Source: Rhodospirillales bacterium (GTDB lineage Bacteria; Pseudomonadota; Alphaproteobacteria; BOG-932; Roseiterribacteraceae). Taken from it: a stretch of DNA of 51,287 nt. A program made the position numbers and the translations under genes. The stretch is taken from positions 1-51,287 of the forward strand of contig JAQGIF010000032.1 of assembly GCA_028291345.1 (NCBI GenBank). Reading direction: 5' to 3'. How positions within the stretch are numbered: position 1 is the first letter of the stretch; each line of letters opens with the position of its first letter. Of the stretch, positions 4,623 to 17,840 are shown piece after piece. Under the pieces are notes generated by a model. It was not told where the DNA came from, made no database searches, and saw nothing but the letters and a program-made list of their open reading frames with translations.

Positions 4623-5456
4623 TTATGGCATATACACGCCGCCCGACACGCTGATCAGCTGCCCGGTGATGTAGCTCGACACGTCAGAGGCCAGGAATAG
4701 GGCCAGATAGGCGATATCCTCGGGCCGTCCCAGTCGGCGGATGGGGAGGTTGGCCATATTCTGTAGCTGGCCGGCGTCCAAAGCTTCCTGCATCTGCTCG
4801 GGCTTGCCGCGATTATCGACGACCAGGCGATTCCAGAAGCTGCCGGGGCCGACATCATCGTTTTTGTAGGGGACGATCCAGCCGGGGGCGATGTTGTTCA
4901 CCCGCACGCCCTTCGGCCCCCACTCATAGGCCAACCCCTTGCTGAAGCTATTCACGAAGCCCTTGGTCGCGCCATAATGCACCACCTGCTGCGCCGCCTC
5001 ACCCAGCAGACCGGAATTGGACGAGATATTGATGATGCTGCCACTTTTGCGCGATAGCATGTCATGCGCCACTGCCTGGGTACAGTTGATGACGCCGTCC
5101 GCATTGAGCGCGAGTTCCCACTTGCGGGTATCCTCTGACAGGTCCTCGAACGGCGACTGGGCGGCGACCCCACCCGCATTGTTGACCAGCACGTCGATCG
5201 GGCCGAACCGGTTCTGCGCCACTTTCACCATCGCATCAACGCTGGCGCGGTCGGTGACATCGGTCTTCACCGGAAGGATCGCTCCGCCCAGGCCCAAAGA
5301 CTTGCCGTCGTCGGCGATCCGCTGACCGATATCCATATCGCGCGAGGCGTTGATAACGTTGGCTCCTTCGCGGGCAAATTCCAATACGAGCCCACGGCCG
5401 ATGCCGCCGCTTCCGCCGGTGACGATAACGGTCTTGCCTGTGAGATTGAGATCCAT
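4623..5456 (-). CDS. SDR-family oxidoreductase (classical short-chain dehydrogenase)
   Basis: A 277-residue classical short-chain dehydrogenase/reductase. It has the dinucleotide-binding motif TGGSGGIG (13-20), the NNAG motif (92-95), and the full catalytic tetrad N118, S145/S146, Y161 and K165 (YGATK). The Pro-Gly motif IAPGW and the C-terminal SVSGGVYMP are also standard. The residue after the second beta strand (NASRD) favours NADP(H) over NAD(H), but weakly. Its substrate cannot be read from sequence. It lies 124 bases downstream of a 79-residue protein gene on the same strand and may be transcribed alone. Confidence 0.9.
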   Translation of the reverse strand: MDLNLTGKTVIVTGGSGGIGRGLVLEFAREGANVINASRDMDIGQRIADDGKSLGLGGAILPVKTDVTDRASVDAMVKVAQNRFGPIDVLVNNAGGVAAQSPFEDLSEDTRKWELALNADGVINCTQAVAHDMLSRKSGSIINISSNSGLLGEAAQQVVHYGATKGFVNSFSKGLAYEWGPKGVRVNNIAPGWIVPYKNDDVGPGSFWNRLVVDNRGKPEQMQEALDAGQLQNMANLPIRRLGRPEDIAYLALFLASDVSSYITGQLISVSGGVYMP

Positions 5457-16171: not shown

Positions 16172-16960
16172 TCATGCCACCGAAATCCCTCCATTCGCGC
16201 TGACCACCTGTCCGGTCATATGCGAGGCCAGTGGGCTCGCCAAAAACACGATGATCGGCGCGATGTTCTGCGGCACCGGTACGCCTAGCCTTGCCCGCTT
16301 CTCGGCTTTCTGGAACAGCTTGCGGCTGAATTCGCCGGCCATGACGCTGTCATAGGTTTTGGTGTTGCGGGTGATCGATGGGGTCACGACGTTGGCGCGA
16401 ACGCTGTGGCGGGCCAACTCGACGGCCAGCGTCTTCATGAACATGGCGTTGCCGGCGAAGGCGGCGCCGATCACGGACTCACCGGGGGTCGCCAGCTTGG
16501 CAGCGTCGGAGGCGACCGAGACGATCGCGCCGCCGCCGCGCGCCATCATCATCGGGATCGCCAGCCGGCAGCAGCGCATCAGGCTGATCAGCTTGCCCTC
16601 GAACGTGTTTTGCCAGTCGGTGGGATCGATATTCATAAACAGGTCGGGCGGGCCGCCACCGGTCGCGGTGTGGATCAGTATGTCGATGCCGCCGAAGGAC
16701 TCGGCGATCCGGGCGAAGAGCGCATCCACCTGCGCCTGGTCGGCATAATCGGCGGCGATGAAGCGGAAGGCGGTGCCGGGGATCAGGGCGGCCAGCCGCT
16801 GCCGCTCAGCCTGTCCCACGGCCTCGTCGCGGCCGTTCAGGATCACGCCCCTGGCGCCGGAGCGGCCGAGCATTTCGGCGGTCGCCAAGCCGATGCCGGA
16901 GGTCGATCCGGTGACGAGGGCGACTTTCCCGGCCAGCAGGGTGGGGGCGAAGGCTTCCAT
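16172..16960 (-). CDS. SDR-fold protein lacking the catalytic Tyr and Lys
   Basis: A 262-residue protein with the complete Rossmann motif TGSTSGIG (17-24) and a normal SDR C-terminus (ASHMTGQVVSANGG). The catalytic tetrad is mostly gone: where Tyr and Lys of YxxxK should stand, 12 residues after S151, the sequence has I164 and F168 (ESVIGAAFAG); the structural Asn is replaced by K123; the NNAG motif reads HTATGG. Only the Ser remains. It probably binds NAD(P) but cannot work by the usual SDR chemistry. ATG 16960 follows the stop of the intact upstream SDR gene by one base, so they are translationally coupled and could form a mixed oligomer. A start at 16984 (MAGGW) is the alternative. Confidence 0.85.
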   Translation of the reverse strand: MEAFAPTLLAGKVALVTGSTSGIGLATAEMLGRSGARGVILNGRDEAVGQAERQRLAALIPGTAFRFIAADYADQAQVDALFARIAESFGGIDILIHTATGGGPPDLFMNIDPTDWQNTFEGKLISLMRCCRLAIPMMMARGGGAIVSVASDAAKLATPGESVIGAAFAGNAMFMKTLAVELARHSVRANVVTPSITRNTKTYDSVMAGEFSRKLFQKAEKRARLGVPVPQNIAPIIVFLASPLASHMTGQVVSANGGISVA

Positions 16961-16961
16961 C

Positions 16962-17723
16962 TTATCCCGCCAACCGCCCGCCATCGACAGCAAGCGGATG
17001 GCCGGTGATGAAGCCGGCCCGGTCTGAGCACAGGAACAGCACGGCGTCCGCGATCTCGCTTGCCTGGCCGATGCGCTGCATCGGATGCATGGCCTCGATC
17101 AGCTTGATGTTGGCGGGGTTGTTCCGCATCACCCGCTGGACCATCGGCGTGTCGATCGCGCCGGGGCAGACCGCGTTCACGCGAATGCCCTGGGCCGCAT
17201 AGGCCATGCCCACAGTGCGGGTCATGCCGACCACCGCATGCTTGGCCCCGACATAGGACGGATGGCCTGGGCCCGCCATGCCGGATACCGAGGCGGTGTT
17301 CACTATCGCCCCACTGCCTTGCCTCAGCATCTGCGCGATTTCGTGCTTCAGGCAGTAGAAGACGCCGCGGGCGTTGATCGCGAACGTATCGTTGAAGGTC
17401 GCGCTGTCCCAGAATTCGTCCAGCCGCGCGCCGCCCGAGATGCCAGCATTGTTGAACGCGAAATCGAGCCGGCCGAATGTGGCCACGATGGTCTCGACCA
17501 TCGCCTGGACTTCGTTTTCGTCGCGCACATCGGCATGGATATAGATCGCCTTGCCGCCCGCCTGTTCGATCAGGCGGACCGTTTCGCGTCCGCCTCCGTC
17601 GGCGATGTCATCGACCGCGACCTTGGCGCCGGCCTCGGCAAAGGCGAGCGCCGTGGCCCGCCCAATCCCGCTGCCCCCGCCGGTCACCAGGGCGATCTTC
17701 CCCGCAAATTCTTCGGTAGCCAT
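16962..17723 (-). CDS. SDR-family oxidoreductase, catalytically complete
   Basis: A 253-residue classical short-chain dehydrogenase with TGGGSGIG (14-21), NNAG (91-94) and the full tetrad N117, S145, Y157 and K161 (YVGAK). After the second strand an acidic VDDI favours NAD(H). The substrate is unknown. It is the first gene of a two-gene leftward pair; its partner is the non-catalytic SDR paralogue that begins one base beyond its stop. Confidence 0.92.
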
Positions 17724-17796: not shown

Positions 17797-17840
17797 CTGC
17801 GTAACCTGCGGATTAGAAAATTCATCCGCAGATTACGCAG
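17797..17840. repeat. 17-bp imperfect inverted repeat with 9-bp periodicity
   Basis: The arms 17797-17813 and 17824-17840 are reverse complements except for one base, around a 10-base A/T-rich loop. The right arm continues as a short tandem series of nine-base units of the form CGCAGATTN (to about 17856). It is in the 348-base gap between the divergently oriented SDR and glutamate dehydrogenase genes, and is AT-richer than its surroundings. Its look is that of a dispersed REP-like palindrome rather than a terminator. The rest of the gap shows no gene. Confidence 0.7.

Follow-up and report, generated by a model that had tools for sequence, protein, structure and literature searches.

SDRs form one of the largest enzyme superfamilies, and their annotation as oxidoreductases rests on the YxxxK motif. 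The window analysed here, a stretch of 51,287 nucleotides from a Rhodospirillales bacterium (contig JAQGIF010000032.1), carries two adjoining SDR genes, the downstream of which encodes a protein (P1) without the Tyr, Lys and Asn of the catalytic tetrad, and it raises the question of what an SDR does once these residues are gone. A preliminary description had placed the start of this gene one base past the stop codon of a fully catalytic SDR (P2), and had noted a retained nucleotide-binding motif together with I164 for Tyr, F168 for Lys and K123 for Asn. The coordinates agree with this layout, the motif TGSTSGIG lies at T17-G24, and the numbering and spacing of the three substitutions are correct (Table 1). 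In the alignment, P2 carries all four tetrad residues (N, S, Y and K). The one-base gap makes translational coupling of P2 and P1 likely, as far as can be judged from gene layout, and a scan of the region for promoters and terminators gave no signal above shuffles.

Table 1. Features of the P2-P1 gene pair in the window, with residue counts from the 23-member alignment of Tyr-less proteins.
Feature	Position	Strand	Details
P2, canonical SDR	17723-16962	minus	253 aa + stop; Asn-Ser-Tyr-Lys intact; NAD-type Asp past beta-strand 2
P2 stop codon TAA	16964-16962	minus	
Single intergenic base between P2 stop and P1 ATG	16961	minus	
P1, SDR without Tyr, Lys and Asn	16960-16172	minus	262 aa + stop; boundary 16172 includes the stop codon
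P1 start codon ATG	16960-16958	minus	
P1 cofactor motif TGSTSGIG, residues 17-24	16889..16912	minus	
P1 Arg44, NADP-type basic residue past beta-strand 2	16829..16831	minus	Arg 22/23, Lys 1/23
P1 Lys123, at tetrad Asn position	16592..16594	minus	Asn 0/23
P1 Ser151 (tetrad Ser, retained) and Asp152	16505..16510	minus	Asp152 23/23
P1 Lys155	16496..16498	minus	Lys 22/23, Arg 1/23
P1 Glu161, three residues ahead of the lost Tyr	16478..16480	minus	23/23
P1 Ile164, at catalytic Tyr position	16469..16471	minus	Ile 17, Ala 2, Leu 2, Val 1, His 1 (n=23)
P1 Phe168, at catalytic Lys position	16457..16459	minus	Met 15, Lys 3, Phe 2, Leu, Gln, Ala (n=23)

P1 is an SDR by fold, divergent and not a canonical enzyme. 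It matches the Pfam profiles PF13561 (151.6 bits) and PF00106 (137.2 bits), its structure model shows a Rossmann fold and the TGxxxGxG motif is present, as in classical SDRs; of the Asn-Ser-Tyr-Lys tetrad, Ser alone is retained. An assignment of P1 to a named NCBIfam family was rejected, as none of the best 25 models listed reaches its cut-off.

Homologues retaining YxxxK would point to a recent mutation or a sequencing error. Twenty-two relatives of P1 were found in Alphaproteobacteria, other proteobacteria and Actinomycetes, and an alignment of 23 members was built from P1, its genus relative (L010, = G001/L009) and the 21 others. The catalytic Tyr occurs in none of the 22 relatives, and the tetrad columns contain Tyr in 0/23, Asn in 0/23 and Lys in 3/23 members. 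The loss of Tyr is therefore conserved, with Ile as the commonest replacement (17/23), and Phe is found at the Lys position in 2/23. The Ser151 column holds Ser in 21/23 members and Thr in one, and invariant positions comprise Asp152, Ala153, Thr158, Gly160, Glu161, Gly165, Ala169, Thr200, Phe211, Phe216, Gln251, Ser254 and Ser260. The genus relative, a peat-bog Rhodospirillales MAG with 87% identity to P1, is an independent genus member that shows the same substitutions, the same pair (with a gap of 2 bases) and the same surroundings. At its positions 5271-5272, the P2 orthologue has two N bases (an assembly join) at the 5' end, so that its N-terminus is provisional. Between P1 and this relative, dN is 0.085 and dS 0.778 (ratio ~0.11; Nei-Gojobori), and P1 is under purifying selection; the corresponding values for P2 and its orthologue are 0.115 and 0.71 (ratio 0.16; Nei-Gojobori). 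Apart from the unusual residues themselves, nothing speaks for a recent mutation, a decaying gene or a sequencing error, an explanation that is hardly credible given the shared substitutions in the genus relative, the missing Tyr in 21 further relatives and the dN/dS ratio. Since Tyr is absent from all 22 relatives, the substitutions in P1 are not recent, and the clade is almost certainly conserved, old and functional.

A search of genome contigs for relatives of P1 returned only the 87% relative and two unrelated SDRs, and searched phage records contained distant SDRs only. Plasmid relatives with 39-45% identity were detected in Rhodococcus, Azoarcus, Simplicispira, Sphingopyxis, Mycobacterium, Aminobacter and strain QY30. 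A profile (A1) built from these plasmid relatives was used for genome surveys in which scoring covered the top 6 or 7 candidates of each genome; it identified members in 7/337 alphaproteobacterial genomes (own genome included), one further member in a sample of 398 genomes from the phylum, and members in 6/394 genomes from the class of a Nocardia genome (actinomycetes). Members are set apart by a wide score gap (E <=5e-67, with next matches at 2e-53 and weaker). Within the partial literature coverage, no publication on this Tyr-less clade was found.

Within the source genome, ~143 SDR-like matches are present, 47 of which were read out as a paralogue comparison. Tyr and Lys are both retained in 46 of these 47, and Asn is missing in ten, so that the loss of Asn is less diagnostic. 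Judged against these paralogues, the tetrad loss in P1 is neither chance nor routine variation. The sole exception, L005 (G000:C109:21819-22580), has Ser in place of Tyr and Arg in place of Lys, within an LSNSLRA motif; it represents a different Tyr-less type from P1 and is related to Aeropyrum APE0912.

Trees of the Tyr-less proteins and the 47 own-genome paralogues, with a midpoint root only, place the Tyr-less proteins on one side of a branch with an SH-aLRT support of 95. The support is 98 when residues 151-169 and 123 are removed, and because the grouping survives this removal, the clade does not depend on the motif columns. Beyond the clade, the next-best profile scorers fall into two groups, one BadH-like with Tyr and the other composed of further Tyr-less proteins. 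The first includes L091, L092, L094 and the plasmid protein L090, which present SDAGRVGSSGEAVYSACKGG-type motifs, Tyr and Lys, and an Asp past beta-strand 2; own_L074 is also a Tyr-containing near relative of the clade in the tree. In the second, L093 (G060:C1:706898-707665) and L089 are Tyr-less and carry a TTDA motif, as in L034, rather than ASDA, and these three proteins form a deeper Tyr-less group, apparently related to the P1 clade. On this topology, the loss of the tetrad Tyr, Lys and Asn happened once, early in the history of the clade, and a BadH-like, NAD-dependent ancestor is the probable source of the Asp152/Glu161 frame. The NAD-type Asp would have been exchanged for the NADP-type Arg in the clade, a direction taken from the midpoint-rooted tree.

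For the function of P1, the preliminary description offered three readings, namely a mixed oligomer with one inactive subunit, an allosteric or stabilising partner, and a protein with a new activity. In a mixed SDR oligomer, P2 would perform the chemistry and P1 would serve as a silent scaffold or regulator, by analogy with BbsC and BbsD of anaerobic toluene degradation. Such an arrangement is compatible with the lost tetrad, the one-base coupling and the retention of the pair in both genus members that have either gene, and it has a precedent in BbsCD, which the title of a reference in PMC10818641 describes as a heterotetramer with inactive pseudoenzyme subunits. The comparative data weaken it. 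Orthologues of P2 (E < 1e-75) occur only in the source genome and in that of its genus relative, and the canonical SDR next to the Tyr-less gene is absent in most relatives. Outside the genus, an adjoining SDR (within ~0.4 kb) was found only at L037, L045 and L048, and these proteins share 28-34% identity with P2 and are not its orthologues. The exact pair was thus found again in the genus relative but was not seen outside the genus, and, because P2 orthologues are confined to two genomes and few relatives have an adjoining SDR, the coupling with P2 is, judged from gene order, a genus trait and not a family trait. P1 and P2 also differ in cofactor type and are not sister sequences; P2 lies elsewhere in the tree, nearest to own_L087, so that the pair did not arise by tandem duplication, and P1 as a recent P2 duplicate is rejected at 28% identity. 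In addition, P1 retains TGxxxGIG and the conserved NADP-type Arg, unlike BbsC, which reportedly lacks both the cofactor and the substrate motifs. A conserved NADP-type cofactor site and fixed polar residues are needless for a pure scaffold, and the mixed oligomer is therefore considered unlikely, the allosteric partner is weakened along with it, and a new activity is favoured.

Two observations concern the surroundings of adjoining SDR genes. The SDR upstream of the Tyr-less gene at L045 (3626-4357) shows HSAASRGG where YxxxK belongs, making it a second Tyr-less SDR in that locus, and presumably resembles peroxisomal-type enoyl-CoA reductases. Upstream of P2, an inverted repeat, CTGCGTAA(T/C)CTGCGGAT, with a near-perfect 17-bp stem is located at window positions 17797-17840; its RNA fold has an energy of -29.9 kcal/mol (z -5.9), 11 genome copies exist at <=2 mismatches (reversed control 0), and it looks like a dispersed REP-like palindrome.

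Gene neighbourhoods point to the substrate class. Within a radius of ~8 kb (~6 kb for plasmid loci), an acyl-CoA gene is found near the Tyr-less SDR in 18/21 other loci, as a raw count in which two loci share one genome (G060); L017, L038 and L047 are the exceptions. These neighbours comprise CaiB/BaiF CoA-transferases, AMP-dependent ligases, acyl-CoA dehydrogenases, enoyl-CoA hydratases, thiolases, acyl-CoA carboxylases, MaoC, and 2-hydroxyacyl-CoA dehydratase with its activase. Among P1's own neighbours in the window, acyl-CoA genes are absent, a point against the acyl-CoA reading, and the genes present encode CYTH-CHAD, a ZapE/AFG1-like ATPase, a Glu/Leu/Phe/Val dehydrogenase, a zinc-type alcohol dehydrogenase, a CMD-domain protein and a GST. 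In a recurring cluster, two genes of the 2-hydroxyacyl-CoA dehydratase family adjoin the Tyr-less SDR gene; it was seen in Rhodococcus, Azoarcus, Sphingopyxis and two genomes of the actinomycete class (L013 2442-6747; L015 1-6747; L018 4671-9406; L043 8879-12334; L044 7539-12850), and most of these loci also have an activase, either annotated or clustered. A literature search on aerobic 2-hydroxyacyl-CoA dehydratase clusters with SDRs yielded nothing useful.

A structure model of P1 was generated with AlphaFold2 from a six-sequence alignment and shows an SDR fold (mean pLDDT 78, pTM 0.82). The loops 153-159 and 197-206 have pLDDT values below 50, and reading a mechanism from the model was rejected for this reason. 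In VIA-align, the top 50 matches are tied at Z 32-33 and include many SDRs, so that structural ranking is unable to separate reaction types. For entry 7pcs (BbsCD), where one row per entry gives the best-matching chain, the chain listed is the active BbsD and not BbsC, which also speaks against P1 as a silent subunit. Foldseek ranks AerF (6jh7) first, and this protein, an NADPH-dependent double-bond reductase of the Microcystis aeruginosin pathway, is also the best single-domain PDB match of the clade profile. Its lead over ordinary FabG-type matches is small, and it ranks fifth by single-sequence phmmer. AerF is not firmly tied to the clade: the tree puts it close to the Tyr-less group but outside it, at moderate support, and shows no starred grouping for it when the motif columns are left out.

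Taken on its own, the proposal that P1 is a catalytically active NADP enzyme is probable on the conserved residues. Our leading but tentative reading, to which we give a little less than even weight, is that P1 is an NADP(H)-dependent SDR that dispenses with Tyr and uses acyl-CoA as its substrate, possibly as a C=C reductase, with P2 performing a separate step. P1 would bind NADP(H) and act on a CoA thioester, and hydride would probably be delivered to a C=C bond in conjugation with the thioester or with a ketone. Ser151 with the Asp/Lys/Glu set, or an ordered water, may polarise the carbonyl and supply the proton. P2, with its intact tetrad and NAD-type pocket, could catalyse a separate alcohol/ketone conversion of that substrate, and coupling would then serve to supply two consecutive enzymes in equal amounts and not to build a mixed oligomer. 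C=C reduction is favoured because isopiperitenone reductase and AerF are precedents for Tyr-less or Tyr-replaced SDRs; by this analogy, the assignment of the reaction to C=C reduction specifically is plausible, though somewhat short of an even call. On a broader and more speculative view, the clade might have swapped the Ser-Tyr-Lys-Asn tetrad for a Ser-Asp-Lys-Glu set and NAD for NADP, giving a new acyl-CoA reductase activity that would be widespread among degraders of ring or xenobiotic acids. Asp152 and Glu161 are also found in Tyr-containing BadH-like relatives, and for this reason their role may lie in binding the substrate and not in taking the place of Tyr.

A different chemistry for the same site would be that of an alcohol/ketone (hydroxyacyl-CoA) oxidoreductase with another acid-base group, provided by Ser151 with Asp152, Lys155 or Glu161, or by the substrate itself. 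BadH-like ancestry agrees with this, NADP-bound Tyr-less SDRs such as the LxxxK protein BcSDR are known (PMC11614110), and substrate-assisted ketoreduction is reported for SimC7 (PMC5039031). However, the Lys that contacts the nicotinamide ribose is also gone in 20/23 members, while BcSDR keeps it, and this oxidoreductase is regarded as possible but on the unlikely side. With Tyr and Lys both gone and a fixed Asp/Lys/Glu set remaining, P1 might instead bind NADP(H) without net redox, as an acyl-CoA hydrolase, lyase or isomerase, or as a redox sensor; the switch to an NADP-type Arg and the fully retained glycine motif suggest that the cofactor matters, which makes a non-redox role quite improbable.

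The preferred NADP(H)-dependent acyl-CoA reductase can be compared with several known systems. BadH-type SDRs (2-hydroxycyclohexanecarboxyl-CoA dehydrogenase, TIGR03206) are the nearest Tyr-containing neighbours of the P1 clade by score and tree, and share with it the S-D-A-x-(R/K)...GE motif and a setting in acyl-CoA catabolism. They keep Tyr, Lys, Asn and the NAD-type Asp, which P1 lacks; P1 shows SDA...GE without Tyr, Lys and Asp, and an assignment as BadH was rejected at 117.5 bits against a cut-off of 431.2. AerF (PDB 6jh7/6jha/6jhb) resembles P1 in the absence of the tetrad Tyr and Lys and in a Lys at the position of P1 Lys155; its crystal holds NADPH, and P1 likewise has an NADP-type site by sequence. 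Unlike P1, it also lacks Ser, Asp152 and Glu161, shares only 28% identity and functions in natural-product synthesis. BbsCD ((alpha-hydroxybenzyl)succinyl-CoA dehydrogenase, PDB 7pcs) parallels the pair in having adjoining SDR genes, one of them tetrad-less, and in acyl-CoA chemistry. P1 has an adjoining full-tetrad SDR in P2, although its wider family mostly has no adjoining active SDR, unlike BbsCD, and P1 keeps TGSTSGIG and Arg44 where a silent subunit would have no cofactor motif; P1 is at most a putative counterpart of BbsC. If P1 and P2 did form one complex, they would represent a second BbsCD-like case. Among Mentha SDRs, a Tyr-to-Glu change separates ene reduction from ketoreduction, and a residue swap switches both (PMC4988501). 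Isopiperitenone reductase, the ene reductase among them, resembles P1 as an NADP(H) SDR that has lost the catalytic Tyr, but it is a plant enzyme with Glu at the Tyr position and with Lys and Asn kept (PMC4988501). BcSDR from Burkholderia cenocepacia, a Tyr-less protein of unknown function with LxxxK and bound NADP, shares with P1 the conserved Tyr loss and the retained NADP site, and differs in keeping Lys and in the hydrogen bonds of Asn83 and Ser131 to benzoate (PMC11614110). Tyr-less SDRs are thus already known, and the P1 clade is a further variant. Automatic names such as 'SDR family oxidoreductase' conceal a change of mechanism of this kind, and proteins that lost Tyr, Lys and Asn together, yet are under strong selection in acyl-CoA degradation loci of Actinomycetes and Proteobacteria, provide a testable set for tetrad-free SDR function.
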